DNA from: Patiria pectinifera
Lineage: Eukaryota; Echinodermata; Asteroidea; Valvatida; Asterinidae
NCBI GenBank assembly: GCA_029964075.1
Contig: CM057141.1
Coordinates: 11,098,001 to 11,162,000, forward strand
Direction of reading: 5' to 3'
DNA length: 64,000 bases
Shown here: positions 4,893-48,716 of the stretch, piece by piece
Layout: every line of letters begins with the position of its first letter
How positions within the stretch are numbered: position 1 is the first letter of the stretch
Program-made: the position numbers and the translations under genes
The notes under the pieces: generated by a model
What the model was told of the DNA's origin: nothing
Database searches by the model: none
The model's input: only the letters and a program-made list of their open reading frames with translations

Positions 4893-5900
4893 CTACGCCT
4901 GATTTGTTGACGTTTCAACCACCATATCTGCCTCCTGTGATACTGTGCCCTCATCCATGCCTTCTCCAGACACGCTAAGCTCAATATTCTGTGAGATGTC
5001 TTGTAAGGTTTCATCCATATTGGGTGCAACTGTGACAACGGTGACGGTCATGGTACCTTCCTCATTCTGGATAATCTGCAGTGTCTCGTCTCCCGAGCTG
5101 CGTTGCATGGCATTGCGGATGGCCTCTGCATCAGCTTCTGTCAGCTCCAAGGTGTTGCCATGCTCGTCCACAATTTGGTACTGCTCTTCAAGCTCTTGTT
5201 GATTGGTCAGCTTCTTAGGGGCGGCATTAGCTAATGCTGCCGCACGTTCTTCCGATAAGTCTCCGAACATATTGATGCCATGCATCTGGAAGAGGTGACT
5301 GAGGAGGCCGGCCTTGCCTTTGTAGGTGTTCTTGCAGGCGTTGCATCTGAGTGGAGTGTGCTTGCTGTGCACACTCATGTGGATGATAAGCTTGTCCTTG
5401 AACTTAGACGAGAAGGCGCACTCCAGGCACTGGTAGCGGTACATGTCATCGTGGGTCTTCTCATGCTGCAGCAGGCTGTAGCGGTCATCGAAGACAGCCT
5501 CGCAGAAGGAGCAGGCCAGATTCTCAATGACCTTGCTGTGCATGTAGATGGTGTGGCTCTGGACGTCTGCCAGCAGGTTGAAGAGGGCATCGCAGTGGGG
5601 ACATTTGTGCCTCGAGTGCAGGACCGAGTGCTTCCACAGATGCTCCTTCAGGCTGCTCTTCTGGGTGAAGCTCTGGTCACACATGGCACACATGAACGGC
5701 TTCTCCCCAGTGTGGATGCGCATGTGGCGCTTCATCGCATAACCCGGGAAGGAGGTGAAGTCACACAAGGCACACTTGACTTTCTCCCTGGGCCGCTTCT
5801 TTCCCGAGGTTTTTTTAGACTTCTCTCCATTAGCAGGCTGCTTCTCCCCATTGGCATCCTGCTTCTCTACATTGGCAGGCTCAGGCTGCTTCTCACTCAT
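4893..5900 (-). CDS. Short CTCF-related C2H2 zinc-finger protein (six fingers)
   Basis: Predicted nuclear DNA-binding protein of 335 aa in one uninterrupted exon. The ATG at 5900 is the first in frame: a TGA lies four codons upstream. A lysine-rich head with ANGEK-type repeats (residues 1-41) is followed by six C2H2 fingers (about 43-207) that match CTCF fingers 5-10 in order. Finger 2 shares SFTQKSSLKEHLWKH almost exactly with the CTCF-like gene at 23495-32551 (SFSQKSSLKEHLWKH). Finger 4 has the RYSLLQHEKTH form of CTCF finger 8. The tail (about 242-305) repeats the DEHGNTL...DAEAI...LQII block of that gene. Fingers equivalent to CTCF 1-4 and 11 and the YDF motif are absent. It looks like a truncated paralogue from a local duplication. 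Unlike a processed pseudogene, it keeps an intact frame and has a good 5' splice acceptor. The function is unknown; DNA-sequence choice should differ from CTCF. Confidence 0.88.
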   Translation of the reverse strand: MSEKQPEPANVEKQDANGEKQPANGEKSKKTSGKKRPREKVKCALCDFTSFPGYAMKRHMRIHTGEKPFMCAMCDQSFTQKSSLKEHLWKHSVLHSRHKCPHCDALFNLLADVQSHTIYMHSKVIENLACSFCEAVFDDRYSLLQHEKTHDDMYRYQCLECAFSSKFKDKLIIHMSVHSKHTPLRCNACKNTYKGKAGLLSHLFQMHGINMFGDLSEERAAALANAAPKKLTNQQELEEQYQIVDEHGNTLELTEADAEAIRNAMQRSSGDETLQIIQNEEGTMTVTVVTVAPNMDETLQDISQNIELSVSGEGMDEGTVSQEADMVVETSTNQA

Positions 5901-6317: not shown

Positions 6318-7760
6318 TTACTGATCTTCATCACTATCACTACTGTTATCACTATCGCCGTCATCAAGGTTGCCCCCGGCCCAGCTACCTGTACCATCTG
6401 GGTGAAATCTAGCCAAGCCACACAGGATGTTGTTAAAGTACAGTTTCTTTTTCCCCTCCCGCGCCCTGTAGGCCATCCGAGCCAGGTTGACGGGACTCAA
6501 AACAGCAGCGGTGGGCTCCTCTGACACCTGCTGCGTGAGGACCTGGCTGACGATCTCCTTGGTAGGCTGGTTGAAGTTTTCAATGGCTTTGGCCTTGATT
6601 GCCGCCTTCACAACAGATTTGACCAGGGCCCCGGGCTCTGGGGCATGGGTGTGCTGGTGGGGACCTGGCGTGATAACCCCATCGCACTCCTTGAGGAACA
6701 CCGGGCAACGCATCTTCTTGCTTCGGACAGTGCACTGCCAGTCCACAGCTTTCTTTCGCACTCTTTTGACGTTGTACATAAAGCCCTGGCTGTCAACGAG
6801 TCGTGGGCGACGGCGCTGGGAGGATGACTGAAGAAAACGGTAGCCTGCTGCTTGAGCCTCCTCACTCAACCTGGATGTCTGAGGCTCAGAGGCCAGCAGA
6901 GCAACAGGTGGTTCACTTGTATTAGCACCTCCGTCATTAACAATGTCCCAAGCTTGCTCGGCGATGCATTTCTTTTGCTTCCTTTTGGCTTTCGGAGCCT
7001 TCTGTGTTTTTGGAACTGTTTCTACTTGGATGCCCCCTTCATGATTGTGTGGCTTCGAGCCGAGGGCAAACTGTTCCTTACACTGTCTAAGGACAGCTGG
7101 ACATTTGATGGTCGAGTCCCTTAAGATGCACTTCCAGCTGGTGTCTTCGTTCCGGACCCGCTTGATGCTGTAAGTGAATCCATTGCGGTTGTCCACAAGT
7201 CGAGGCTTTTGATAATTCACAATGTTCTGTAGCTTAGCCAACTTCTTAGATTTCCTGTACTTGCTATCAGGAATTACAGCTTTCATGGAAGACAGCATTG
7301 CCTTTGTCATCTTGACTGGCTTCTCTGCCTTCTTTGCCTTCTTTGCCTTCTTTGTGGTCTTGGATTTGGCATTTGAACCATCCACGACATCCGTTGTATC
7401 TATTTGCGACTCTGCCATGTGAACGTGTGGCTGGGGTCCAGGAATGAACCCGCCCTTTTTCTGTTTGACGGTAGCGCGGCAGGAGATGCTCTTACCTCTT
7501 GCTGTACACTGCCAGTCTGTAGCGCCATGTGCTCGTACACGTTTCACGTTGTACACATACCCCAGGGCATCCACAAGCTTTGGTTTGCAGATGCGTTTAT
7601 ACTGCTTTGTAGATCTTTTCCATTTGACCGGAGACAAAGAGGCCTGGCCAGGTACAAATTGGTCGTCTATGATTTCTACATCAACGTTTGATTCTGCTAT
7701 CTCTATGACTTGCTGTATCAACAGTTCTTGCATGGCAGTTTGCTCCATTTCAGTGGCCAT
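6318..7760 (-). CDS. Triple FLYWCH zinc-finger protein
   Basis: Predicted DNA- or protein-binding nuclear factor of 480 aa in one coding exon. I start it at the ATG at 7760, which sits in a perfect ACCATGG context; the frame stays open three codons upstream but without an ATG. Three copies of one module are visible at about residues 59-114, 185-240 and 319-372. Each runs K/R-P-K/R-LVD, then an aromatic-Y-x-(V/I)KRVR strand, W-x-C, a second C eight to nine residues later and a final H-x-H, which is the FLYWCH finger pattern. Basic lysine/alanine-rich linkers separate the modules. The tail is acidic (SDNSSDSDEDQ). FLYWCH fingers occur in insect Mod(mdg4) and nematode FLH/PEB proteins. Its spacing (about 420 bp) from the short CTCF-like gene on the same strand is tight. 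Exact orthology was not recognised. Confidence 0.85.
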   Translation of the reverse strand: MATEMEQTAMQELLIQQVIEIAESNVDVEIIDDQFVPGQASLSPVKWKRSTKQYKRICKPKLVDALGYVYNVKRVRAHGATDWQCTARGKSISCRATVKQKKGGFIPGPQPHVHMAESQIDTTDVVDGSNAKSKTTKKAKKAKKAEKPVKMTKAMLSSMKAVIPDSKYRKSKKLAKLQNIVNYQKPRLVDNRNGFTYSIKRVRNEDTSWKCILRDSTIKCPAVLRQCKEQFALGSKPHNHEGGIQVETVPKTQKAPKAKRKQKKCIAEQAWDIVNDGGANTSEPPVALLASEPQTSRLSEEAQAAGYRFLQSSSQRRRPRLVDSQGFMYNVKRVRKKAVDWQCTVRSKKMRCPVFLKECDGVITPGPHQHTHAPEPGALVKSVVKAAIKAKAIENFNQPTKEIVSQVLTQQVSEEPTAAVLSPVNLARMAYRAREGKKKLYFNNILCGLARFHPDGTGSWAGGNLDDGDSDNSSDSDEDQ

Positions 7761-7867
7761 GGTAGGCAACTCAGCACTCTACCTCAAAACAGTTACACCC
7801 TGTGGCTTATGGCTGTTACGCCAGGCAGGTGCCCACAAATGAAAGACCGAATGTCGAACAGTTGTTT

Positions 7868-10883: not shown

Positions 10884-11769
10884 ACGTGTGTTACATACCT
10901 TGTGTGGACATTGCTTTGTTTTCGTGTAGTTAAGAAAACTCGGTACAAAAAATAACTTTACTCAAACTGTGAAAACTCTTTTAACCCAATTTTTTTTCTA
11001 TGATTCCCTATAGTGTTTCTCTTCATTCTGCTACAGATAAACCTAACCCAAAAATGCCTCTAAACCTGTTTTCCAGAAAGGGCAAAACCTTATGTGGACA
11101 CGGCTTAGTCCACATAAGGTTAACACAACCTGCATTATGTGGACCTCTTTTGTTCACAAGTCCACATAGGGTATGTAACACAAACTCACCCACACACGGA
11201 AGGACATGACAGAAACAGTATGCCCTTCGGCTTCGCCGGGGCATAAAAAAATCAATGGAAATACATTACGGACAATTAGGACTTTAGTCAGACGGCCGAC
11301 TTGAGCGATTTGACGAGTTGCATGACGTCGGTTTAGCCGGAGTTTACTGTATACCTTCACTGCACAATTCCGGCCTGGCGGCTATCTGTAAAAGGGTCTA
11401 TGTCACTTTAAAGAGGACAGGACACCAGATTGAAAGCAACTGGTGATGAGGACCTAGAACACCATGAGTGAAGCCATATTGGGAAAATGCAGTCACTCAC
11501 AGGCTTACCTTTTAACAAACATTGTTTCAACTTCTTGTCAGCAAGCACAATCAACGTTCTCTATTTGGTAAACTTACCGTTGCAACGTCTAAATGAAACA
11601 GTTGATTTCAACAACTATGGTCCCTTGTCACAAATTGGCCAATAGTTGATTTATCAACATTATTGGAAAGGCGATTACAAGGCAATTCAGAATGAAGCCC
11701 TCCGTTGTGTGTACAAAGTGTGTGATAAAATTGAACGAGCCAAGGTTCTCTTTTTCTATCCCATTCAAA
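10884..11769. other. No gene recognised
   Basis: Holds the right part of the pogo-like element and flanking sequence. An inverted TTATGTGGAC motif recurs near 11092-11175. No domain is recognisable in the short open frames. Confidence 0.5.
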
Positions 11770-12669
11770 ATGCAAACCAAGTACACAATGCAGCAAAGCG
11801 GCAGTGAAGGGAATGCATTGTCTCAGGGTGGTGAAGCGATCATTCAAGTACATTGATATGGACAGCTTCCTGATTCTATACAAAACATACATCAGACCGC
11901 ATCTGGAATACTGTGTTCAATCATGGTGCCCATGGCTGGAAAAAGATACACATATCTTGGAAAAAGTTCAAAGGAAGGCCACCAAGTTGGTCCCAGCCCT
12001 AAGGCCAAAAAAAAAAAGTCTCCGGTTTCTGGTATGCGCGCGCGTCGCCGTAGCCATGCGCGTCGGCAAAATGAAAACGTTTTTTTTTCAATACAAGATG
12101 ATGTTTCAAAACCGCCAAACTCACTGGTTTGACTGGAATTCTGCTGCTGCACAATTTTAACGTGTTTTTAGAAGGGGTTATGATCGAGAATAAGATTTAT
12201 GTGGCCTCTCTGGACTCCCATATATTTGCACTAAGTTTAGTCGGGCACCATTTGCAGTCATCAGCCGACATTTGAAGCCAAAAAAAAAAAAAAAACCAGG
12301 TAAAAAAAAAAAAAGCCGCGTCCCCGCACCACTTTTGGGGCAAGCTCCATACCAGAAACCGGAGACTTTTTTTTTTTGGCCTAAGGGAGCTTTCATATGA
12401 AGAAAGACTGCAAGCTCTAGACCTATATTCCCTTGAGAAAAGAAGAGAAAGAGGAGACCTTATAGAGACTTTCAAGATATTGAAAGGCCTCCATAAAGTA
12501 GACAGCAGCAGATTCTTCAAAACAGCTGACAGATCCAGGACAAGAGGTCACTCTTTTAAACTCTTCAAGCCATCCCTGAAGAAAAACATTGGATGTAGGA
12601 AGAACTTCTTCACCCAAAGAGTGATAAACATCTGGAATTCCCTTCAAGAAGCAGTAGTAGATGCTTAGT
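11770..12669 (+). pseudogene. Non-LTR retrotransposon (CR1/RTE-like) reverse-transcriptase fragment, interrupted
   Basis: The first part (about 11801-12002) reads as the C-terminal region of a LINE reverse transcriptase, including YIRPHLEYCVQSWCPWLEKD and LEKVQRKATKLVPALR. The second part (12385-12669) continues with LSYEERLQALDLYSLEKRR, RTRGHSFKLF, RKNFFTQRVINIWNSL and a stop at 12667-12669. A Tourist-like MITE (12003-12381) sits exactly between and duplicated TAA. Upstream of about 11800 the frame is broken (stop and shift). The rest of the LINE is missing, so this is a dead 5'-truncated copy. Assignment to CR1 versus RTE is not resolved. Confidence 0.85.
12003..12381. mobile_element. Tourist/Harbinger-like MITE, copy B, inserted in LINE
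   Basis: Ends GGCCAAAAAAAAAAAGTCTC and GAGACTTTTTTTTTTGGCC are inverted, with a 3-bp TAA duplication (12000-12002 and 12382-12384). It is the same family as copy A at 3517-3852 but in opposite orientation, sharing GTCTCCGGTTTCTGGTAT and the GGGGCAAGCTCCATACCAG block. It encodes nothing. Confidence 0.85.
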
Positions 12670-16985: not shown

Positions 16986-18106
16986 TAGCTCTACTGAGTG
17001 GAGCGCTGAATTACGGGTACCCCTTCATACTAGCGCTCCACCGTTTCGTGATACTTTGAGGGCACCATCACATAGCATAGTCACAAACCCACGCGAGGAC
17101 AAAAAGACCCCAAAAAACCGGTAAAGAGATTACAAATGAGAGAGACAGTTGTCCTGGATTGATCTATACATTCTTGACATCCCATGAGACCCCTTATATT
17201 GTTCCCAAACAGCGAACATTTTGGAAAAAAACAGGAAAATAGTCTGAAAACTTACAGTTCAATGTGTTTGCATGGAGGTCCGGTTCTTGAATTAGCTTGT
17301 CGCGGAGGGCGTCCTGACGTGACGTCACCGTCGTTGCTCGGTCGATCGCGAAGAAAAACAAGTCGCGCTTTATCAACGACTGTTTCGTGTAATGATACAC
17401 GCTCTCGATCACGCAGATCGTTTTTGGTTTTGAACGTGTCAGAAAAACACGCTGGCAGAGACTGCAGTGAATGTGGCTATCGATTTGAATTGCCATTTTC
17501 AGAATTGCAATTTCAGAAGAAGAAAAAATAATACTGGGATTCTCATTTGTCAGTATATTAGTAGTTCTTTCTTTGACACGAGTTTCATGTGGGTTTCTGT
17601 CGTCATTAATTTGTTTAGAACGTGTCGTTTCAGCCGTCTCCACCTTGGGTGTGTTCAAAGCCCATACTGTCGTACGGCGCGGATCGGAGCACGTATCATT
17701 ACACGAAACAGTCGTTGATAAAGCGCGACTTGTTTTTCTTCGCGATCGACCGAGCAACGACGGTGACGTCACGTCAGGACGCCCTCCGCGACAAGCTAAT
17801 TCAAGAACCGAACCTCCATGCAAACACATTGAACTGTAAGTTTTCAGACTATTTTCCTGTTTTTTTTCCAAAATGTTCGCTGTTTGGGAACAATATAAGG
17901 GGTCTCATGGGATGTCAAGAATGTATAGATCAATCCAGGATAACTGTCTCTCTCATTTGTAATCTCTTTACCGTTTTTTTGGGGTCTTTTTGTCCTCGCG
18001 TGGGTTTGTGACTATGCTATGTGATGGTGCCCTCAAAGTATCACGAAACGGTGGAGCGCTAGTACGGAGGGGTACCCGTAATTCAGCGCTCCACTCAGTA
18101 GAGCTA
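16986..18106. mobile_element. Hairpin element 2 with 9-bp target duplication
   Basis: Starts TAGCTCTACTGAGTGGAGCG and ends with its reverse complement. Arms of about 425 bp (16986-17410 and about 17683-18106) flank a less similar 270-bp middle. The 9-bp duplication GGCGCTACC lies at 16977-16985 and 18107-18115. Long inverted repeats with a 9-bp duplication fit a Mutator-like foldback element. The 225-aa and similar frames here are mirror images in the two arms, not genes. Confidence 0.85.
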
Positions 18107-23494: not shown

Positions 23495-25693
23495 TCACTG
23501 CTCTTCAACAAAGAGGTAAATGGTTCCATCATCGGCAACTTCTTCATCATCCTCTTCCTCCTGGTTCTGACTTATGGGCTGATTGGCTGGGACGAGAATG
23601 GACTCCGCCTGAGTGATTACGTTGGGTTCGCTCTCAGCTTCAGGTTGAGCCTTCTGACCTTCGACCTTTAGCTGTGGTTGGACCATCGTGGGTAGGCCAT
23701 CATCGGAATCTGTTTCTTGCTCAGCACTGCCTTCTGGTGCCTTCTGTGGAGTCTGCTCCGTCTTTTCCGTTTTCAACTTGACAGGGGTTGTCTCTGCTTG
23801 ATTCTCTGTGCCCTCCTCTGCTGGTTGACTGGTTCCCTCAGCTTCCTGGGAAGTAGTGGGCTGGTCTTCACCTCCTACTTGCATTAAGACCTGCCCTGGT
23901 AGAATGTCTCCGGCCATGCTCGTCTCAGGTTGCTCCTGCTGTTGGACAGTGGTCAGGGATCCATTGACTATTTGGAGATTCTGCTCAAGGTTGGCCACTG
24001 TGCCGTCTGGATTCTGAGCGACAGTGAGGACTGTGACTGGACCTCCCTCCTCTCCCTGAATGATCTGTAGCGTGCCGTCTGCTGTGCCTTGCTGCATGGC
24101 CGCCTGGATGGCCTCTGCATCCTCCTGAGAAAGCTGCAAGGTGTTGCCATGCTCATCAACTATTTGGTGCTGCTGCTCTGGCAAAGCCATTTTCTGTCGA
24201 CGGGTAACTTTCTTGCTTGGAGAACCAACCTCTGATGAATCTCGTCTTTTGCGCTTCAAGCCAACTTGAGAGGCCTCCTCTGGCTCAGGCTGGATGTCAT
24301 GCTTCTTCTGCAAGTGATTCACCAGGGTCTGCTTGTGTTTGAAAGTCTCTTGACAATCAGTGCACTGGAATGGGCGTTCTCCAGTGTGGACTCTCATGTG
24401 GACCACAAGGTGGCGCTTCTGAGGGGCGGAGTATTCGCATTCCAGACACTGGTAGATCTTCTCGCCCTTGTGCGTTTTCTGATGCTGCATGAAGCTGAAG
24501 CGGTCAGTAAAACCATTCTCGCAGATTTTACAGATGAGGGGCTGACCCTGTGTATGCATCTTGCGGATGTGGGTCTTCATGTCTGCGTGTCGGCCAAAGG
24601 TTGTGTCGCAGTACTCGCACTTGTGTGCTGGGCGGGAACCAGCATGTTTCCATAGGTGCTCCTTCAGGCTGCTCTTCTGGGAGAAGCTGTGCTCACACTC
24701 ACCACACTGGAATGGCTTCTCACCTGTGTGGACCCGCATATGACGTTTCAGCTTGTAGTTGTCTGTGCTTGCGTAGTCGCACAGCGTACATCTGTATGGC
24801 TTCTCTCCAGTGTGGGACCTCATGTGGCGTTTGATCTTGCTTGCTTCCACGCTGTAATACTCACACAGGGGGCACTTGTGTGGTTTCTCGTGGGTGTGCA
24901 TGTATTTCATGTGTCGCCCCAGCTCCCCGGACGTTCCAAAGGCCTTCTCACACAACTCGCATTTGTAGGGCTTAGTGCCGCTATGCGTGTTGAGGTGATT
25001 CCGCAGAAGTGTTGACGTGCGGAAGATACGGCCGCACTTGTTGCACTCGTGGACTTTCGGCTCCCTGGGACTGGCAGGGGTCTTCTTAGCCCGTCCAAGA
25101 ACCTGATCAATGAGACGACCATCATCAAATTTGGGGACCATGTATTTCTTGCGCTTCTTGGGGGAGTCCTTATCGTCAAGGCTGGGTTTGGTGACAGGCT
25201 CGTCATCGTTGTCTCCCGCGTAGAAGTCATAAACGGAATGATCCTGGATGGTTCGCTCGCCATCTTCGCCTTCTACCACCTCCCGGACGATCACAATCTG
25301 GGTGTTCATGGGGACCACCACCTCCTCATGATCCTCTCCCACCACCACTGATTCGCCTTCCACTCCCTCTACATCCACCTGCTGCCGTTTGCGGGGGGAC
25401 CTGCGGATGGTAATTACTTTCTCCTTGCTTTGGTAGGAGGGTGGGACTGAACCCTCCTGGATAGCTGCTGCATTAGCTACAGCCTGCTCCTCCAACTCTT
25501 CCTGGGTAGGCTCTGCAGTTGGGACCTCTTCGGCCGCCTGAACCACCTCGGTACTGCTGTGTGAGACTACTGCCCCTTCTTGTGCAACCACAGTGCCAGC
25601 CTGTGAGACCTCGACTCCTGATTGGTCAGCGCCTTCTCCCTGGACAATTGTGTAGACCTGGGTGTTGTTGCTGGTAACCTCAGTGGAAACCGG
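23495..25693 (-). CDS. Last coding exon of CTCF-like gene: YDF motif, nine fingers, tail
   Basis: This single exon holds the functional core. The acceptor TTTTTAACAG precedes 25693. The YDF codons are 25223-25231. The finger array spans 25045-24299 and the DEHGNTL block 24169-23978; the TGA stop is 23497-23495. About 60 residues separate YDF from the first finger. That space includes basic KKRKKY and a stretch where CTCF finger 1 would sit, but no Cys/His pairs. All nine fingers being in one exon differs from the multi-exon finger array of vertebrate CTCF. Confidence 0.9.
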   Translation of the reverse strand, partial: PVSTEVTSNNTQVYTIVQGEGADQSGVEVSQAGTVVAQEGAVVSHSSTEVVQAAEEVPTAEPTQEELEEQAVANAAAIQEGSVPPSYQSKEKVITIRRSPRKRQQVDVEGVEGESVVVGEDHEEVVVPMNTQIVIVREVVEGEDGERTIQDHSVYDFYAGDNDDEPVTKPSLDDKDSPKKRKKYMVPKFDDGRLIDQVLGRAKKTPASPREPKVHECNKCGRIFRTSTLLRNHLNTHSGTKPYKCELCEKAFGTSGELGRHMKYMHTHEKPHKCPLCEYYSVEASKIKRHMRSHTGEKPYRCTLCDYASTDNYKLKRHMRVHTGEKPFQCGECEHSFSQKSSLKEHLWKHAGSRPAHKCEYCDTTFGRHADMKTHIRKMHTQGQPLICKICENGFTDRFSFMQHQKTHKGEKIYQCLECEYSAPQKRHLVVHMRVHTGERPFQCTDCQETFKHKQTLVNHLQKKHDIQPEPEEASQVGLKRKRRDSSEVGSPSKKVTRRQKMALPEQQHQIVDEHGNTLQLSQEDAEAIQAAMQQGTADGTLQIIQGEEGGPVTVLTVAQNPDGTVANLEQNLQIVNGSLTTVQQQEQPETSMAGDILPGQVLMQVGGEDQPTTSQEAEGTSQPAEEGTENQAETTPVKLKTEKTEQTPQKAPEGSAEQETDSDDGLPTMVQPQLKVEGQKAQPEAESEPNVITQAESILVPANQPISQNQEEEDDEEVADDGTIYLFVEEQ

Positions 25694-28600
25694 CTGTTAA
25701 AAACAGACAAGAATGCAGTATTTACATTGTTGTTCAAAAATAAAGAAAGTTTAAGCTTCCCTCGAACAAACCTCTGAAAATGTATCTAATTAACGTGAAA
25801 GTTTTGGGGCCCTAATTAACTTCCATAAAATACTATTATTATGCCACCTCTGAAATAATGTGGTATGTAATGAATGACCCATAGATATGAAGTCACTGCA
25901 GTGTCTCGAAATATACGGTAAACAAAAAGACCCCCCCCCCCAAGTACCCATAACAGCTTTCCTACCTGTGTGAATGCAATCTGGGTTCCATCTTGAGAGA
26001 CAGGAATAAACTGTTGGCCTTGACTGTTTTCATACACGATGCTGTTGCCAACGACACTCACTGGCTGTCCAGTGTTTCCGTCATTTTGCATAGCAACCAT
26101 CAAAACCTGCAGAATATTCAGTGAATCACAATCAAAAGTTGGTATTCTAGCATCCTTAAAAGACATACTTGAATCTCAGAAATAACTATTTGAATACAGT
26201 GGAATGTCGCTATACCGAACACTGCTATACTGAACAACATCCTTGGCTCTCGATTTTTGTGTACAAAACCAACCGAACATTGTTGTTGAAAAATGTCAAC
26301 AGAACAGCAACAAGTGGCTATTATTTCCCCAAGGAATAGAAGGGGAAAGCAACCCATCAATGTAGGTAGTAAGCTCAAAACTATGTACATGTAATGATTC
26401 AATAGTCGGCACGTGTTCAAAGTCGCCTTTCAGCAACTACCAGGGTATGCAGGGTGAAGTTATGAAAAGTGTTATTTATTGAAAAGTGAGTACGGGAGTA
26501 CCGGCAGCTTAATCGATCCCACGATGTTCGTTATAGTGGCGTTCCACTGTACTTGACAACATCTTAAACTTCATACAAATCTTCTTTACCAGATACAAAA
26601 CCATTTTTATTTTATAAACAAACTGTTGGTCATTGCAAATGTAAATTTGGAAGAAGCATGAATATAAAGGAATATAAAGAAACATCAATGCACAATTTCA
26701 ACTCTTTGGGCAGATAATAAAAATGAAAGTATTTTTATCGTCACAAATGAGAAGCGTTGAAATATGCATCAGGTCCCCATGCACTACTTGCAATAGGTGA
26801 TCTAACTAAAATATTGGGCATGTGCATAAAATGTGTTGGCCAAGACTGCTAACCTGTTGCTGTTGCTGAACCATGTTTCCGTGCTGATCCACATGTTGCA
26901 CCATGACCATCTGTTCTCCTTCCATGTTTTGAAGACCCTCAATTCCTGCAACAATACCATACACAAACAACTTTATGAATTCGTCCTCGACATCTGGAAG
27001 AGACGAATTAAAATGAAATTCAAATGCTCCTGAGACAGGAATGTACCTATCGCCGTTTGCGAGTTAGCCAACCCCCTTAGGCAACCCTGTGGAACTTTTG
27101 TACGTTGAGTTTTGTTTGTCTCAGATTTTGCGCGTTCTGCGTCCATTTGTTTATCATGTAATTGGACAATATTTCACAGGATGCGTTGACGCGATTCTAC
27201 AGCGATAGGTCAACTGCACTGGGACCACTGTAGAATCCATCAGGAAGGAATTGAATGTAAAGGAGATTTGCGTCACAGAAATTCAATATGTAATTTTAGG
27301 GAAAGGCACACACAATTTGTTCATAATAAATAAGAGATGTTTTTAAATGAGTTAAGTTATTCTACACAAAATTGAACCGGGATGCAGAAACAAATAAAAA
27401 ATGTTACTGTTTCTATTATTGCAATAATACTCGCTAATACGGCTACTGTCATACATCCAACTGAGTCCATCATTTTTTTTAATTGATTGAGCTGATGAAG
27501 TGATCCTAGGAATGTTCAGACGTAAATGATTTGCGCATGAGCTTAGTTGAGCACTAAGATAAGTGGGGTGCCAAGATCTTTCGTGAATACCAAATTAAGC
27601 GCCCAACTTAAGATAGCAGGCTGCTTAGATTTAAGAGTGACTTAAGTATTGTCTTAAGTTTCAGGCATGCAACTGGAAAGTCACACAAAAAAAGAGGAAA
27701 TTCAAATCTTTCCTAGACTTTGTACAACATTTTTCTATTTTCAGTGGCACACTTGGAAATAAAAAAAGTGGAAATCAGCTGATCTGAGGAAAAGTTGCGT
27801 GCCTGAAGTTTGAGTTTTGTGAATAGTTTTGTGGGGCGCTGTGGTCCAATGGTTACGGTGTTCGACTTGTGTGCCGTGGTACATGGGTTCGAATCCTGAC
27901 CGTGGGAACATGGTGCTGGTGCTCTTGAGCAAGGCACTTTACCATTATTGCTTCATCCTTCGGATGGGACGTAAAGCCGTAGGTCCCGTGTGTTGTGTAA
28001 TGCACGTTAAAGAACCCAGTAACACTTGTCGCTAAGAGAAGGGGTTTGCCCCGGTGTTTCTGGCAGTGGCAGCAATATGCGCCGCAGCACCTAGCAAAAA
28101 AAAAGGCGCTACATAATGGGTCTCATATGTTCATATACTTCATTACCTGTCTTTCGTCTTTCGTCTCATAATTTGCGCCAGGAGTGTCATATTGACAGAT
28201 ATGGCGCGGTATAAATGTTCACTATTATTATTATTATTAATACGGCTCCTGTAGTTTACTTTTGAAAGTAGACTAGTGCTCACCTTGTATGGTGATGTTC
28301 TGCTGTCCAGCCAGTCCTGCCCCCTCAATACCTTGAATGAAGGCCTGCCCCATGGTGTCTGACGGGTCTGCCACTGTGACCACAGGCTTGCTCTGCTGGG
28401 CGCTGACATCTTGGCTCACAACCTGGTCAGAACACAGTCAAGAGATTCATATCAATCTATTTATTCTTTCCGTTCATGCACGGCAACTTTGTCAAAACTG
28501 GTATTTTAGGCATGCTTTCCTTGATGTTGTGATCTGATTTTCTCAATCCTTTAACCCTAACTCCCTAGCATGATTTACTAGGAACCATACCCATCATGGC

Positions 28601-31600
28601 CAATTCCAACACCATATGGGAAACTGCACACACATATTTCTGACTTTGATTCTGGAGGTGTGCCAACCCAATGTAAAAGACTGTCAGTTTAGGGGTACTG
28701 TAGCCATCCTGACTTTCCAACAAAACATGCCGTTGGTGTTTGTTGGGTTGAGCTCTGTTAGGGTTAATGACTAAAATTTTCCACAGTGAATAATGCTACA
28801 GACTGACCCATCTTCGTAGAAAATGACAACTGCGTATTCAACACCGTCAGGTGCGTGTACGTGCAGTGTCAAACAACTGAATCAAACAGCAAACGTTTTA
28901 AGACCTACAAGGGGCAAAAGTTAGGGGAAAGTTAAAAATTCATGACATAATCGGCCGAGGTTCTAGGGCTGCTGAGGGCCCAAAGCAACATAGGTCCTGA
29001 TCTGTTTGTACTTGACTAAGAAAAGACACCCCTTATCTCATGACAAAGAGCATGAGTGAATGACTGTGAAGGGGAAGGCCTTACCGGCTGGGTTGCAATG
29101 TTGGCTGATGCATTGGCCAGCAGCTGTAGTGTCTGAGTGATGTCCATGGCTGCAGCATCCTCCCCTGATGTTGTTGTCTCCATAGGAACCTCTTCGACAC
29201 CTGGTTGATTGTAAAATACCAAATAGGACAATCAGTACGACAAGGAAAAAAATTATAACAACTCAAGGGGACTACGCTTCTTAATAATGTAGTTAATATA
29301 GACAAGCATTTTTTATCAAAATATGTGATGCGATCGAGCTAAATGAGTCATTTGTTAACCCTGGTAAAAAAATTTTTTTACAGATTTGAAAAGAGCACGA
29401 GTTCAGCATTACTGTGAAAACCGCATGCTGATACCATCTTTTGTTCAAAAATTATGAAAATCGGAACACAAAAAGATGTGATGAAGTGATGTGATGAAGT
29501 GGCCCTATTTAGGCCTGAATCTCCAAATGAAAGTTCCAGACAAACAACTCATTTAGCTTGATCGCATCACATATGTTTGAATGGGTTTACTCGTAAATGT
29601 ATCAAAGATGAAACCTAAGTTGTCTATGCAAACTTTTCCTAATGCAGTTGTCTGTACACATGAATGATGCAGCAAAATCAGGGATTTTATTTCAGCTCAA
29701 GAAATAGTTACTGACCATGTTGGACAACTTCTACTAGCTGTTGAGGTAGCACCTCCTGACTCTGGGTTATACTGACTGGTGTCGGCTCCTCAGCTGAAAT
29801 CTATGATAAGAAAGAAAGAAAAAAACAATTTCAGAACAATATTAACACTAAATTTTATATTACCGACATACAGATTCTTGTCATTTGATTGGTGGAACTC
29901 ACATCACGTGACATTCATTAATGCTTCCACTCATGCCGGGGCTCAAAAAGTTACATTCGCCCATGGTCAATGTGATTTACTATTATTCAACAGTTAGGAT
30001 CAGCCTTGTTCCTTAGCGCGGTATTTGTGTGCAAATGCATGCTGGTGTGCGCGTTGAGCATATTGTTCCCCAGCGCCAGTACCTACAGAGTTGGGTTCAA
30101 ACATTTCGTGAAGGGGTGGTTTAGAACAGAGAAATATATTTCCCTCCAATTAAGGATTGAAATAGAAGTTCATTTTAACTGTTAATCAAATGACAAGGAT
30201 CTGTATGTGTTATATAAAACAAATATCGAGTGGCTTTAAATTGTAAAATGGGAGGAATGCTATCCCTCTGTAAAATCTGGACATTTCCTATTCACTGGAC
30301 TTCGCCTCATGAGATTAAAAAGTCCAGATTTTACCTTGCAACAATATCAATATCAAAGAAACTCACAGTTGCCAACCAGTCAACAGAGCATAGTGCGCGG
30401 TAAGGACGCAAACCCATGCACATGCAGGGTATGTAAGCACCGTTTTCCAACAACAAAAATGATAGCCTTAACGGCGCGAGATTCAATTCGGTGAATGAAG
30501 AATCATAAAACTCCTAAACATAGACAATTTTGCTGAGCAAGTAAACAAGTACAGGGACAAACATGCTTGGGACTGCTTAACAAGTAAACATGCTTGGGAC
30601 TGCTTAACAAAAACCCAAAAAAATGTCTAAGAACAATTTTTTGCTTAGCTGCTCCATGACATCAAACCCTTGTATAATATAAAGAATCTGCGCAGGAATT
30701 ACGGGAAAATGTGAGGTTCACCTGAAGGTTCTGCACGGTTTGTTTAAGCAGTGGCTATTGTTATGGCAGCAGTAATGCAATTTTCAACTAGTATCGTTAC
30801 GATACTGCAAAAACACTATTGCGAATCTATATCAACCGTCTGGTTCCCTGACCTAATAGTATTCAACATCAGGATCTTTGGCTGTTGGAACCAGATTATC
30901 AACCAAATGGTTCTCGGACATTATTTCCCTTTTTCAAAAAAAAATCCTCCAAAGAATACAAAGAAGAACATGAAATCTCCATAAATAAAAGCAAAGATTT
31001 GATTAAAAACATGAAAATAAAGAAAACCAAGTGTGCAGTGCGAATTCGACCCCGGAACTTTCAGCATAGTAGTCGTACATTTTACCCCATTGAGCTACTG
31101 AAGTGCTCTGGTTGAATGGGTAGTTATAAAAGTGATGTAGATTCGCAATGGTGTTATTTTTTGTTTTACGATAGCAGTTGAAAATCGCATTACGGCTGCT
31201 GTAACGATAGCCACTACGTTTTGTTTAACTTCGCATTCTTCCCTTAAGTCACCAAAAAAAGGAAACTCCACTTACATGCCGGGGTTGTCCAATGGTAATA
31301 CCCTGAGCAGCCACAAACTCTTGTTGTCCCTCGATGGCCTCTACTGCGGCAGGCTGGACCATCTGCTCTTTAGGCACCGAGGCCTCAGCTACAGGCTGCA
31401 CCATTTCCAGCTGTTGCTGCTGCTGGTGCTGCAGTGCCACCTGCTCCGGCAGTTCCGACAGCGTCACAGCGACTGCGGCAACCTAGAGCATGATTTGGTG
31501 AACACACAGGACAAGTTAGCACCATAGTGTCACACAATTATAATAATTTCCAAACACCCAAGCCCTAACACTGTCAATCTGGCATCAAGTCCAATGTTTT

Positions 31601-32551
31601 GTGATAAGGGTTTTTGTGCTTCCTCAAAATCCTTCAAGACCAGCAGGTGTATTTTAAGGATCAGTGAGGATGAGGGTTGAACAACAGTGTTAGCCAGAGG
31701 GGTGTCTGGGTGTCTTTTGGAGCCCTAACTTTAATTTGGAAATTCCACATTGTTATGCCAATATACATAAAAGCATACAACTTCTGCAAGTTTGGCCCCA
31801 TGTTCAAAGCAATTGCAGACTGTGCAGAATATATCAATATTAAAATATTTGATCTCCAACTAAATATCCAGAATTTTCTGAATTTGAATATTCGAAAAAA
31901 ACTGTGAGCAGTCTTGAGAAGATGAAGAGAAATGGCTGTGATGACATTTTAATCGTTTGAGTTTGCACCTTTCAAATCTTTCAAGTATCAGCTAGACAGC
32001 TACACGTAAACAATAAGTATACATTACATTTTTAATATTTATAAAGCTGATTGTTAATGCAGCTCATGATCAGTGAACCAATAAATTTCTGATCAATGAA
32101 CGCAAAATTTAACCAGGGCGTACACATGCAAAACTTGCTGTGTTTTGAATATTTGAATATTCGAATGAAGGTAAGTTTGAATAACAGAAAACTAAATTAT
32201 TTGAAAATGCACAGACCCAACGCTCAATTTTCAAATGCTGACAAAAGCCCTAGCTGTGATGAGTACCTGTTCTAGTTGGTCCTGGCTTTGGGTGTCTCCT
32301 GACGCAGCAGGAGCAGCCGGAGCCGTTGTCGTTGATGACAACTCTTGATTGAAGTTCTGGAGGTAGGTCTCCAGCACGTTAATAGACGCGGCGGCAGCGA
32401 TGCTATCAGCTGCAGCCGAGCTGTTGCTGGCAGCCACGCCGTCGCCAGACTCCGCAACCACTGTGGCTTCATTCTCCGCATCGTTAACGCCTGGTGTCTT
32501 GTTCACTGCCTCATCAGCCTGGGCTTGGGCTTCATCCAGGTTGGCTTCCAT
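23495..32551 (-). CDS. CTCF-related zinc-finger protein, eight coding exons
   Basis: Predicted 1087-aa architectural DNA-binding protein related to CTCF/CTCFL. Coding exons on the minus strand: 32551-32267, 31482-31276, 29800-29716, 29200-29085, 28422-28284, 26945-26854, 26106-25966 and 25693-23495. All have AG/GT boundaries, and reading phase is kept throughout (3264 coding bases). The ATG at 32551 lies in GCCATGG. Residues 1-355 are Gln/Ala/Val-rich and acidic, activation-domain-like, with repeated GIEG phrases. A SVYDF motif sits at about 508-512. Nine C2H2 fingers (about 572-820) follow, matching CTCF fingers 2-10 in order: for example RTSTLLRNHLNTH, TSGELGRH with the rare HTHEKP linker, SVEASKIKRH and NYKLKRHMR. 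Fingers 1 and 11 are absent. The tail has a DEHGNTL block (864-927) and Gln/Glu-rich sequence. It could be the only CTCF of this animal or a diverged paralogue. Confidence 0.88.
26197..26549. mobile_element. pogo-like MITE in intron
   Basis: Starts CAGTGGAATGTCGCTATACC and ends TATAGTGGCGTTCCACTG, flanked by TA duplications (26195-26196 and 26550-26551). Inner ends also pair (CGAACACTG..., ...GATGTTCG). Such ends are typical of pogo/Tigger elements. At 353 bp it lacks a transposase. It lies in the intron between CTCF-like exons 26854-26945 and 25966-26106. Confidence 0.85.
27662..27812. repeat. Dispersed repeat with CAGGCATGCAACT end, copy 2
   Basis: Second copy of the 22422-22566 repeat. 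Here the ends TTCAGGCATGCAACT and AGTTGCGTGCCTGAA are clearly inverted, supporting a MITE of about 150 bp. It lies in an intron of the CTCF-like gene. Confidence 0.65.
27831..28240 (+). mobile_element. tRNA-derived SINE, full length
   Basis: The head is tRNA-like, with an A box TGGTCCAATGG (27842-27852) and a B box GGTTCGAATCC (27886-27896). These are the internal promoter elements for RNA polymerase III. A body follows with TTGAGCAAGGCACTTTACC and GGGACGTAAAGCCGTAGGTC, then an A-run near 28095 and a (TTA)n tail at 28223-28240. It sits antisense in an intron of the CTCF-like gene, ending only 43 bp from exon 28284-28422. A truncated relative is at 1246-1355. Confidence 0.88.
28551..28767. mobile_element. 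Small inverted-repeat element with TTAACCCTAAC ends
   Basis: The left end TTAACCCTAAC and right end GTTAGGGTTAA are exact inverses 217 bp apart in an intron. A related left end (TTTAACCCTAACTCC) occurs near 63021. No coding capacity; probably a MITE, though such short ends could be coincidence. Confidence 0.5.
29319..29576. mobile_element. MITE with ATATGTGATGCGATC ends
   Basis: The left end ATATGTGATGCGATCGAGCT then AAATGAGT is mirrored at the right by ACTCATTT then AGCTTGATCGCATCACATAT. That gives inverted repeats of about 32 bp with one mismatch class, 258 bp overall, in an intron of the CTCF-like gene. Confidence 0.8.
29852..30219. mobile_element. MITE with ACATACAGAT.CTTGTCATTTG ends
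   Basis: The left block ACATACAGATTCTTGTCATT (29866 on) is mirrored by AATGACAAGGATCTGTATGT (right, ending 30208), with weaker TTTTATAT / ATATAAAA outside. About 370 bp in the intron upstream of exon 29716-29800. No coding capacity. Confidence 0.7.
30271..30333. repeat. Short inverted repeat
   Basis: TAAAATCTGGAC (30271-30282) and GTCCAGATTTTA (30322-30333) are exact inverses with a 39-base loop, inside an intron. Significance unknown. Confidence 0.6.
30555..30609. repeat. Direct duplication of about 27 bp
   Basis: ACATGCTTGGGACTGCTTAA occurs twice in tandem, separated by CAAGTA. A recent slip duplication in an intron. Confidence 0.8.
31030..31115 (-). pseudogene. Possible tRNA-like or SINE-head relic
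   Basis: On the minus strand TAGCTCAATGG resembles an A box and GGGGTCGAATTCGC a degenerate B box at roughly tRNA spacing. The cloverleaf is poor and there is no SINE body that I recognise. It may be chance or a decayed tRNA-derived piece. Confidence 0.3.
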
Positions 32552-43920: not shown

Positions 43921-44568
43921 TCAATTTTGAGAGGCTACAGACTCAGGGATCTGGTCCCTACTGTCATGTCCCAGCTCTCTACTCTTCATAATGACGGAGT
44001 TTGAGCTTTCTGGAATGCGTGTGTGTCCTATCGAGGAATGGTGGTTCTGAATTACCGAGATCTCATTAGCCTTGGACATGGCAGCTGCAAAGCCATTCAT
44101 GATCGGCGGTGGGTACTGGAAGAAAGCACCCTCATACATCGGCCGTAGTCCAAACATGTCTGGTCTGAACATCTCGCCTTCCTTAGGGCTCCTCATGAGT
44201 GGGGCTTCCATGGAGATGCGCCTTCCCCGCCGCGTGGGGCCGCCGTTCCACATATGGGTTCCCAGATGCACCTTCAGATTTCCCTTGGTGGTGAACGCCC
44301 GGCCGCAGATGTGGCACTTGAACGGCTTCTCACCGGTGTGGGTCCGGATGTGGATCTGGAGAGCGCTGTCTGATTGGAATTGCTTGCCACAGACATGGCA
44401 GCTGTGCCTCAGCCGTTTGGGTGGGGAAGGACAACTGGATTCTGAGATGGAACGCTTCAGCGAGGGTTGGGACGGGGGGATGGGTAGATCAGTGGGATGT
44501 GGCTTCTGCAGGCTGGGATATAGCTTCTGATGTATGTCCGGTTGGTATTTGTTGTTATTGTTTGGAGA

Positions 44569-44601
<33 letters not shown>

Positions 44602-47600
44602 AAGCTGGCTGCTCGGTGTCAAGTGATTCTGACTGCTAGGTGGAGTGCTTTGTTGGCTGCTTGGTGACTTCATCTGGCTACTCAGGGGGATTTCCTGAGT
44701 GTCCTCAAAGGGAGAAGCTGGCCGTTGAGGGTTGAGGGGGGATATTTTTTGTGGGGAGCCCAGTGGTGAAGGCAGCTGCTGCTGATGGGTCTGTGGAGAT
44801 CTTTGCCGCTCTGGATGTGATGGCGGTGGATCACGCTGGATGAAAGGCCGGGGAGATGTTCTCTGCTGCTGCTGCTGCTGCTGCTGGTGGTATTGGTGCA
44901 TGGCCATCTCTGCAGCAAAGTTGGGCATTCCAGGCATCAGCATGGAATGAGGGGGTGACTGCAAATGATGCATTGGGTGTATCATTTGCTGCTGTTGCTG
45001 ATGCTTGTAATGGGGATGTGAGGGGTCAAGAATCTGTGTCGGCATGTCCCGAATCTTGTGGGTAAGCATATGTTGACGCAGATTACCTCTAGTTGAGAAC
45101 CCCTTGGAGCATATTTCACACTTGTATGGCCGCTCTTTTGTGTGGCTTCTGTAATGGATATTGAGGGCACTGCTACATGCAAAAGACTTGCCGCAGTAGT
45201 GACAGGTAGTGCTGGACCCATTGCTACGTCTAGACCCATAAGATGTATTGGAAGGATCTGGCATCAGTAAGCCGGCACTGCTTCCATTGAGCCTGCCATC
45301 CCCAGGGTGGGGGTAGCCCATGGGAAACAAGTAGTGGCTGTTATTAACTTGATTCTTCAGGGCTTCCAGGCTGTTTTCACTGCTCCCAGAAGAAACCGAC
45401 TTGGGGGTGAGATCCAGGGCTCCGTTGTTATCCATCCGGCTGGTGTCAATCTTGAGGGGTGCTCTTTGGAGATCATCCTGGTGGAACTTCAAGTTGTCGG
45501 GATGACTTTTGTGTTCATCAAAGATATGTCTGTGTTCACCCCTGTGCTCATCTGTAGCACCTCTGGGTTCCACATTTCTACTGATGCACTCATTGTCACT
45601 GATCTGCTCAGAGTCGCCTGCGTGACTTTTATCATCCTGCTTGCCTTGGAGCTCATTTTGATAGGTACTTCCTGGGTGTCTTCTTGAATCACCATGCTGA
45701 CTTCCCATTTCATCACGGTGTCTTCTTAACTCGTCATGATGGTTTTTAATGTAATTAGGCTGAAGATTAAGGTCATCAGAATGTCCTCTTGGTTCACTGG
45801 AGTGACTTCTTTGAATGCTGCCGTGTCGATTTAGTTCATCCTCGTGCCGTCTCACATCTTCCTGACTCAGTCTCTGGTCATCATTGTGATCATCAGGACT
45901 TTGAGATGCTTGGTCAGATACCAAGGACCCTTCTTGGCTTTTTTCCGAGGGGGACCGAGGATCTGGATTGGGAAGACGGCTAATGAGCTGTCGGTGGTGG
46001 TTCTCTGCATTGTTACTAGCTTGCAGGTGCAGTGCTGAGGCTATGGAATCAATACCTTTAGTGTAATTAGGTTGAGGTTCAGAGGACGGAGAAGCTACCA
46101 AACTGCTATCATCAGTAAGGTAGGCTGGCGGTGAGGTAGACTCACCAGTGGGAGGTACCCCAGAAGACTCTTCAACTTCTTTCCCCATCCAGTCCATGCG
46201 CATCTCCTTACTCACATCCATCACCCTCTCTATTCCTCTGGCACGGTCCATTAGGTCACGGTGGATCTTTTGGGTGAGGCCCTTATCTTGCTCGGAGGCA
46301 GATTGGATTTGTTTGAGATTTCCTGAATCAACAGGCAAGCCATTGGGGAGTTCACCTTCTGCTCCTTCTGGTTCAGAAAAACCTTCAGGTGAGGATTCCA
46401 TTTGTGAAGCCATCTCATTGAGCCTGGCATCTTCGTCGTCGTCATCCTGGTCTAGGCCTTGGTTTTCATCACAGACCAGCTCTTCCACAAATTTGTCTTC
46501 AGCATAATGCTCAAATGCAGACAAGTCTTGGGGAATCTGGAAACCCTCAGCCGCATGCATGCGAAGATGTTGCTGCAGCACCAAGACATTGCTGAATCGT
46601 TTCTGGCAAATGGGACAATCGTGGAACATCCTGAGAGGAGGTTGTGCACGGTGGACACTATAGTGTGTCTTGAGGTTGCCCTTGGTGGTGAAGGAACGCA
46701 AGCAGACTCGGCATTTATATGGTCGCTCACCAGTGTGGATCCGGTAGTGCATTTGTAGAGCGCTCTTACAGCTGAGAACCCGGTGGCATATGACACACTG
46801 ACTGGAGTCGCTTATCTTCTGCTCAATGTTCTCAACCAACATTTGTAGTTTGGAGGTTTCAGAAGGCCGGAATCCTTGCTCAGCCAAGGCAGCTAAGGAA
46901 GACGGTGTCTCTGTTTTGGAAGTAGCAATGGGGGCAGTGGTGAATGTACAAGAAGATTCTGACATAATTTGACTGATGGAGTGAGCAAAGCTAGAGGTCA
47001 TCGGGGCAGATGAAAATGCTGGGGATCTTTCCTGTGACAGTTGAGGGGACACAACTGCATCTGCATCCGAAGTCTTGGGCTCTGATTCAGACTTGGGGAG
47101 GACAATATCTGGAACTGATTTGGGACGCACTTCTTCTTGACTTTGCTGTTCAAGGGGCTGGTCACCCGAGATGCTGCTTGAGGCAGAGTCAGACCCGCTT
47201 GCCTGCGACATTGGTATTCCAGGGTGGAAAGATGTTGGAACATCATTAGGTAGGCGACCCATTTCACCTGGAATTGTTGGAAGTGGTACCTGCTGAATGG
47301 AAGGTGACTGGATTGGGAGACGCTCATTTGGCAGAGGAGGAGATGGTGGGTGGGGAGTAGTGTCCATTTTGACATGAGGATAGCGATCCACATGCCGCTG
47401 GAAGTGCACTTTTAGATTCCCTTTAGTTGAGAATCGGTTGCCACATATATTACACTTGAATGGTCGCTCACCTGTGTGAGAGCGGATGTGGATTTGAAGG
47501 GCACTGTCACTGCCAAAGACCTTGTGGCAGAAGCGGCACTTGTGCCTGAAGAATGGATCATCTGAAGGAAATTTGGGGTCAAAGACAGCAACATTCGGGG

Positions 47601-48716
47601 GCTTCCCCTTTCGCTGTAGCATCATAGCTGGTGGAAAGGGAAGCCTGGGTGGAGCCTGGAGTAGCTGACTTGAGACTGGTGGCATGACGCCCTGCTGATG
47701 CAACATATTGAAAGGTGGTCTTGGGGAGGGCATTGGAAAGGACACAGGGGGTATAATGGATGGCCGCAATGGCAGAGATGGCATCATCTGTTGGGGAAGT
47801 GGACGTGGCAGTGAATCAAAAGGATGCATGAGCTGCGGTGAAGGTCCTGAAGACGAAGTTGGCTGCGACATCAACTGTGGCTGTGATTCCACTGAAGGGG
47901 TGAGGGGAGCTGAGGTAGTGGTGACTGGTGTATTAGCCGAGGTAGTAGCAGGAGTGTTCTTGATCTGCATAGCCAGGTTCTGCAGCTGCTGCTGGATGCT
48001 TTGGATGAGCTGTAGCTGGTGAATGTGCTGCTGCTGCAGATGGAACAGCTGATCCTGAATGGATGCCATCTCTGGCCGGTTATGCGGTGGTCGAGGAAAG
48101 GGCCCCATTGGGAAAGGTGCATTCTCCAGACTCCCCGGAAAAACAGGTCTGCTGGATGGGGATCTGGAGTTTTCACAGTGCTGTTTCAGTAGGGAGTGGG
48201 ATTCCTCATACTCCATGGAATCTACACTCTGAGTTCTCAGCCTGTCTGAGTTGGAAGCCTTTATGTCTTCCTCGTGCATGCCATTGTCTAGGGATGGCTG
48301 ATGCTGCTGATGGTCCTGTGGACCATCCTCTTGGGTCAAATGGGCCTCTGGCTCTTCGGTCACGGAAGGCTCCTCAATTTCCTCCTGGTCAGCATACTGG
48401 CTGTCCTGTAGCTGCTGAAGCCCATTCAGTGCCTGATCATTATTGTTGTGATACACAGTCTTGGTGATCTCTTGGCCATACTGGTTCTGTGCAGATGGTG
48501 GACGGCTGCTGTTGGTACTCTCAGCCTGCGGCTGACCGTCATTGTTTATCACAACCACCACTGGTTTCTTAGAGCAGGTTTGTTTGTGCTGCAGAAAATC
48601 TGAGGAGACAGTAAACTCTCCTCGACACTTGCCACAGACATGAACACCTCCTATGATCACATCTTCATCTGTTTCTTCAGTGTTGGCAGCATTCAGATGG
48701 CTCTCCTTGGCAGCAC
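43921..48716 (-). CDS. SALL: Spalt-like (SALL) transcription factor, main coding exon
   Basis: Predicted nuclear C2H2 zinc-finger repressor of the spalt family. The exon begins after a CATTCCTATGCAG acceptor at 48716 with an incomplete codon, so the open frame beyond it is intronic and the N-terminal exon is elsewhere. It codes for about 1597 residues. Landmarks: an N-terminal C2HC finger (HVCGKC..., 48574-48636); a Gln/Leu-rich segment ([14 protein letters not shown]) typical of SALL dimerisation; finger pair 1 (47392-47544); the pair-plus-one triplet with [19 protein letters not shown] and CPICQKRF (46555-46797); a third pair (about 45057-45205); a fourth pair (about 44259-44407). It ends with the NEISVIQ motif seen in vertebrate SALL proteins. 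Long Pro/Gln/Ser linkers include two poly-Gln tracts. It is longer than vertebrate SALL1 (about 1320 aa) because of these linkers. All fingers and the C-terminus are in one exon. Confidence 0.95.
44570..44602 (-). repeat. CAG repeat encoding poly-Gln in SALL
   Basis: About ten CAG triplets (CTG on the plus strand) between the third and fourth finger pairs. A second glutamine run of eight codons lies at about 44862-44890. Such tracts vary in length among individuals. Confidence 0.9.

Follow-up and report, generated by a model that had tools for sequence, protein, structure and literature searches.

A nine-finger CTCF gene, probably of the echinoderm type, and a six-finger CTCF-derived tandem paralogue

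A zinc-finger gene on the minus strand of a 64-kb stretch of animal DNA (the window, used here for the whole stretch analyzed) resembles CTCF yet has nine fingers where human CTCF has eleven. The question is whether this is the CTCF of its animal with two fingers lost, a diverged paralogue of the vertebrate CTCFL kind, or an ordinary CTCF with its outer fingers overlooked. The gene is very probably an ambulacrarian CTCF orthologue, most likely from an echinoderm, with the array of fingers 2 to 10 (F2 to F10) as published for echinoderms.

The nine fingers correspond to CTCF fingers 2 to 10

The span first annotated for the gene coincides exactly with the last coding exon (Table 1), with the stop codon at 23495 to 23497 and the splice acceptor tttttaacag immediately before 25693. 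The open reading frame (ORF) itself runs from 23495 to 25696 (733 residues), its first codon being the CAG of the acceptor. It contains nine intact C-x2-C-x12-H-x3/4-H fingers, with first Cys positions from 25045 down to 24364. For comparison with human CTCF, each finger was represented by its first 20 residues. The best placement on human F1 to F11 was F2 to F10, in order, with 95 of 180 positions identical (16, 12, 13, 15, 6, 9, 8, 8, and 8 of 20 for F2 through F10). This sum was attained by only 2 of the 362,880 possible orders of human F2 to F10, the true order and one tie, which the identity matrix shows to be a swap of F6 and F7. Eight of the nine fingers had their own human counterpart as best single match; the exception was F6, which singly shared 8 identities with human F7, 7 with F10, and 6 with F6.

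Using phmmer against the PDB, human CTCF was the top match (E = 1.2e-87; query residues 215 to 469 on chain residues 293 to 549), scoring 298 bits (7w1m_H) against 213 bits for ZNF568 (5wjq_D). A chance likeness of generic zinc fingers was ruled out by finger order together with these scores. Outside the array, no significant alignment to human CTCF was obtained in the PDB search. The HTHEKP linker after F3, remarked on in the first-pass annotation, is present both here and in human CTCF, and the one-to-one correspondence with fingers 2 to 10 proposed there is borne out by the register, the identities, and the PDB match.

TABLE 1 Coordinates of the nine-finger CTCF gene and its paralogue in the window
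Feature	Position	Strand	Basis
CTCF last coding exon (SVYDF region, F2 to F10, C-terminal domain, stop)	23495..25693	-	Sequence, phmmer, finger register
IVDEHGNTL, within C-terminal block common to CTCF and paralogue	24137..24163	-	Sequence
Nine-finger array, F2 first Cys to F10 last His	24299..25045	-	Pattern scan, register
SVYDF motif, identical to residues 224-228 of human CTCF	25223..25237	-	Human sequence checked against 7w1m_H
Coding exon in phase with last exon	25966..26106	-	Splice/phase analysis
Next coding exon upstream (MEGEQMVMVQHV...), also in phase	26854..26945	-	Splice/phase analysis
Probable upstream coding exon	31276..31482	-	Phase
Probable first coding exon; its ATG has a CCGCCATGG context	32267..32551	-	Inferred from phase, strand, position
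Tandem paralogue derived from CTCF (335 aa); its six fingers (5774-5280) are in register with F5 to F10	4896..5900	-	Sequence comparison

The last exon and the two nearest upstream exons, read through from the most upstream of the three, encode 809 residues. The two outermost exons probably belong to the same gene. Because of the exon phases, one more small exon is needed between 31276 and 26945, where no candidate was found under strict splice rules.

Fingers 1 and 11 are absent

Every one of the 18 cysteines in the CTCF ORF is a finger ligand; thus, F1 and F11 are absent from it. The 59 residues from SVYDF to the first Cys of F2 are free of cysteine, as is the stretch from F10 to the stop, in agreement with the earlier reading that no Cys/His pairs occupy the place of finger 1 and that no finger 11 follows. 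SVYDF, the cysteine-free 59 residues, the array, and the stop all fall within a single open exon whose acceptor is good, and since SVYDF and F2 share this exon, a missed finger-1 exon is ruled out. A phmmer search with the 60 residues around SVYDF returned no CTCF chain in the PDB up to E = 10.

The window was also scanned in six frames for the finger pattern, a search that an intron-split or oddly spaced finger would escape, and no spare F1 or F11 was found among the 28 rows returned. Twenty-five rows were on the minus strand (9 in CTCF, 6 in the ORF at 4896 to 5900, and 10 in a Spalt-type ORF), while the 3 on the plus strand look like chance. On the minus strand, the scan gave no further finger in the intervals separating the CTCF array from the Spalt-type fingers (from 44316 upward) and from those of the paralogue (from 5774 downward). 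The Spalt-type ORF is a large one near CTCF (43921 to 48765, minus strand, 1,614 aa) with ten finger-like units, which we take to be of the Spalt/SALL type.

That fingers 1 and 11 sit in exons missed at first reading, which the first-pass annotation itself had raised as grounds for refutation, is accordingly given hardly any credence. A small upstream exon has yet to be placed, and alternative 3' exons are compatible with the sequence alone; against this, SVYDF, F2 to F10, and the stop occupy a single open ORF and the pattern scan yielded no spare finger.

DNA-contact residues of the array

Residues at helix positions -1, 2, 3, and 6 were compared with those of human CTCF. The contacts are identical in F2 (TTLN), F3 (TGER), F4 (ESKR), and F5 (DYKR), whereas F6 has QSSE in place of the human QGTM. 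The remaining fingers differ in part (F7, RADT here and RSDV in human; F8, DFSQ and EYAQ; F9, QRHV and QRHM; F10, HQTN and QQLM). Among the core fingers, all four contacts are therefore shared in F3, F4, and F5, two of four in F7, and one of four in F6. The helices of both F5 and F6 had been described as differing from those of CTCF; this stands for F6, but in F5 the difference is restricted to residues outside the four contact positions. As the F3 to F5 contacts are the same as in human CTCF, their portion of the motif should be kept, with a change expected around F6.

In sum of likenesses, the protein shares with human CTCF (7w1m_H and other PDB chains) the order of F2 to F10, the F2 to F5 contacts, the linker after F3, and SVYDF, and it differs in F6 and in lacking F1 and F11. 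It would most likely bind a CTCF-like core motif through F3 to F7, and the SVYDF segment may engage cohesin SA/RAD21. With F1 gone, a cysteine-free linker standing in its place, and F11 gone as well, an insulating function of the vertebrate type would be weakened.

A six-finger paralogue lies downstream

About 18 kb downstream of CTCF, on the same strand, lies a second CTCF-derived gene. Its ORF begins with ATG and has 335 codons, with the stop at 4893 to 4895. Aligned to residues 302 to 576 of the nine-finger CTCF, it is identical at 130 of 277 positions (E = 2e-81), and the alignment takes in the C-terminal block with QIVDEHGNTL (IVDEHGNTL at 5174 to 5148 in the paralogue). All six of its fingers are closest to F5 to F10 of the nine-finger CTCF, in order. 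Its best PDB match is human CTCF (2.4e-50), but the finger register is clear only against the nine-finger CTCF: the best placement on the human fingers was F5, F7, F3, F8, F4, and F10, and the order was not recovered. No counterpart of F1 to F4 and no SVYDF, or even YDF, was found in this ORF.

In F6, 15 of 20 positions are common with the nine-finger CTCF compared with 7 of 20 with human CTCF, and the contacts are QSSE in both genes of the window, unlike human. F6 is the only finger in which the paralogue retains all four contacts; elsewhere they have changed (F5, PYAR; F7, LADS; F8, DYSQ; F9, FDKI; F10, GAGS). Across 120 positions compared three ways, 37 were identical in all three proteins and 33 in none; 25 were shared by the paralogue and the nine-finger CTCF only, 17 by the nine-finger and human CTCFs only, and 8 by the paralogue and human CTCF only. 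Since the paralogue has both the F6 contacts and the C-terminal block of the nine-finger CTCF, a duplication of the lineage's own is pointed to, and it would probably have followed the change of F6 in the lineage.

The open frame and intact finger ligands argue for a working gene. Between the two genes, dN was 0.44 and dS 2.0 (NG86, 270 codons); because dS is near saturation, dN/dS is unreliable and no more than hints at constraint. The paralogue would probably differ from CTCF in DNA specificity and would probably not anchor cohesin. Of the two genes, the one with nine fingers looks like the main CTCF, and its neighbor looks like a diverged duplicate.

The situation recalls vertebrate CTCFL/BORIS, which is also a duplicate of CTCF and keeps the eleven-finger array. 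Compared with CTCFL as described, the paralogue has kept six fingers and is close to its parent gene. CTCFL/BORIS is a vertebrate- or tetrapod-specific paralogue (PMC13317027). That the lineage evolved a BORIS-like partner of its own, in the form of a six-finger CTCF-derived diverged regulator or of a competitor, is a tentative and rather doubtful proposal. No description of the paralogue was found in the open-access literature searched, which is weak evidence, as it covers titles, the starts of abstracts, and PMC13317027.

Other features of the window

Between CTCF and the paralogue lies an ORF with a FLYWCH domain (6318 to 7778, minus strand; Pfam PF04500, E = 1.8e-16, with two stretches passing), in which three similar units can be seen by eye. 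Mod(mdg4), an insulator protein of the fly, also carries a FLYWCH domain. Two ORFs at 11735 to 12668 (plus strand) resemble by eye the end of a non-LTR reverse transcriptase and had no Pfam match. Two nearby ORFs on opposite strands at 17194 to 18011 give nearly the same peptide, suggestive of an inverted repeat or a foldback element. At 27830 to 28000 (plus strand), a tRNA-derived SINE-like stretch with A/B-box-like sequence was seen by eye. Pfam searches of four further ORFs gave no family for any of the four at E = 0.01. Searches for relatives of the locus in the collections viral_contigs and genome_contigs gave 0 of 17 and 0 of 86 confirmed pattern matches, respectively, as expected for an animal gene.

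Identity of the nine-finger gene

Of the eleven CTCF fingers, echinoderms are reported to have lost two and hemichordates one, in an account that does not name the lost fingers (PMC13317027); finger loss had been seen earlier in Hemicentrotus pulcherrimus (Watanabe 2023, as cited in PMC13317027). By description, then, Strongylocentrotus purpuratus and Patiria miniata (PMC13317027) and H. pulcherrimus show the same two-of-eleven loss. With this loss in print for echinoderms, the nine-finger architecture is already known and is ordinary for the group. Of the two options left by the first-pass annotation, the loss of both terminal fingers is supported by the sequence and by the published echinoderm state of two fingers lost (PMC13317027).

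The other option, a diverged CTCFL-like paralogue with a canonical eleven-finger CTCF elsewhere in the genome, fares poorly and is very improbable. Duplication has happened, as the other CTCF-derived gene in the window shows, and the evidence covers 64 kb rather than a whole genome; however, the F2 to F5 contacts are fully conserved, SVYDF is present, a two-finger loss is the published state of the echinoderm orthologue (PMC13317027), and of the two copies it is the six-finger neighbor that has diverged more. An independent loss of F1 and F11 in an animal outside the echinoderms is also unlikely, if less so. A separate loss of F11 is in print for Trichinella, from which it was concluded that F11 is not strictly required, but the remaining ten fingers are reportedly retained there (PMC2749850); two lost fingers are the published echinoderm state (PMC13317027), and no other nine-finger CTCF was met in the literature searched.

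The sea urchin factor MBF-1 has nine Krueppel-type fingers. An S. purpuratus gene annotated as CTCF related has been argued to be MBF-1, and the same source suggested that CTCF was possibly lost in some echinoderms (PMC3784565). A possible identity of MBF-1 with the nine-finger CTCF, considered by description, is a lead only; as to a loss of CTCF in echinoderms, PMC13317027 (2026) seems to speak against it.

Implications for CTCF function

The orthologue reading places the gene in a group whose CTCF may function differently from that of vertebrates. Boundaries in sea star and sea urchin are reported to be enriched for CTCF motifs, less so than in zebrafish, and echinoderm CTCF motifs are described as having neither an orientation pattern nor enrichment at loop anchors (PMC13317027). 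Sea urchin CTCF has been suggested to be active in mitosis rather than interphase (PMC11457506, citing Watanabe 2023), and a study of the S. purpuratus CTCF N-terminal domain mentions an earlier claim of a role at TAD borders (PMC7021899). In human CTCF, most loop peaks were gone in a Y226A/F228A mutant, and insulation defects followed mutation of ZF1 or deletion of residues 264 to 288 (PMC7645679). Relative to these functional sites, the nine-finger CTCF has kept the YDF feature and lost that of F1.

As a natural experiment, the nine-finger state bears on which parts of CTCF are needed: F1 and F11 have been lost while the F2 to F5 contacts and SVYDF have been retained, and the group is one whose boundary motifs are reported without an orientation pattern (PMC13317027). 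The six-finger tandem copy would represent a duplication of CTCF distinct from CTCFL. If it does act as a competitor, it would sit on some CTCF sites but not stop cohesin, and it could be one contributor to the reported use of CTCF sites regardless of orientation in echinoderms. It would also be a confounder when CTCF is annotated or knocked down in this group.
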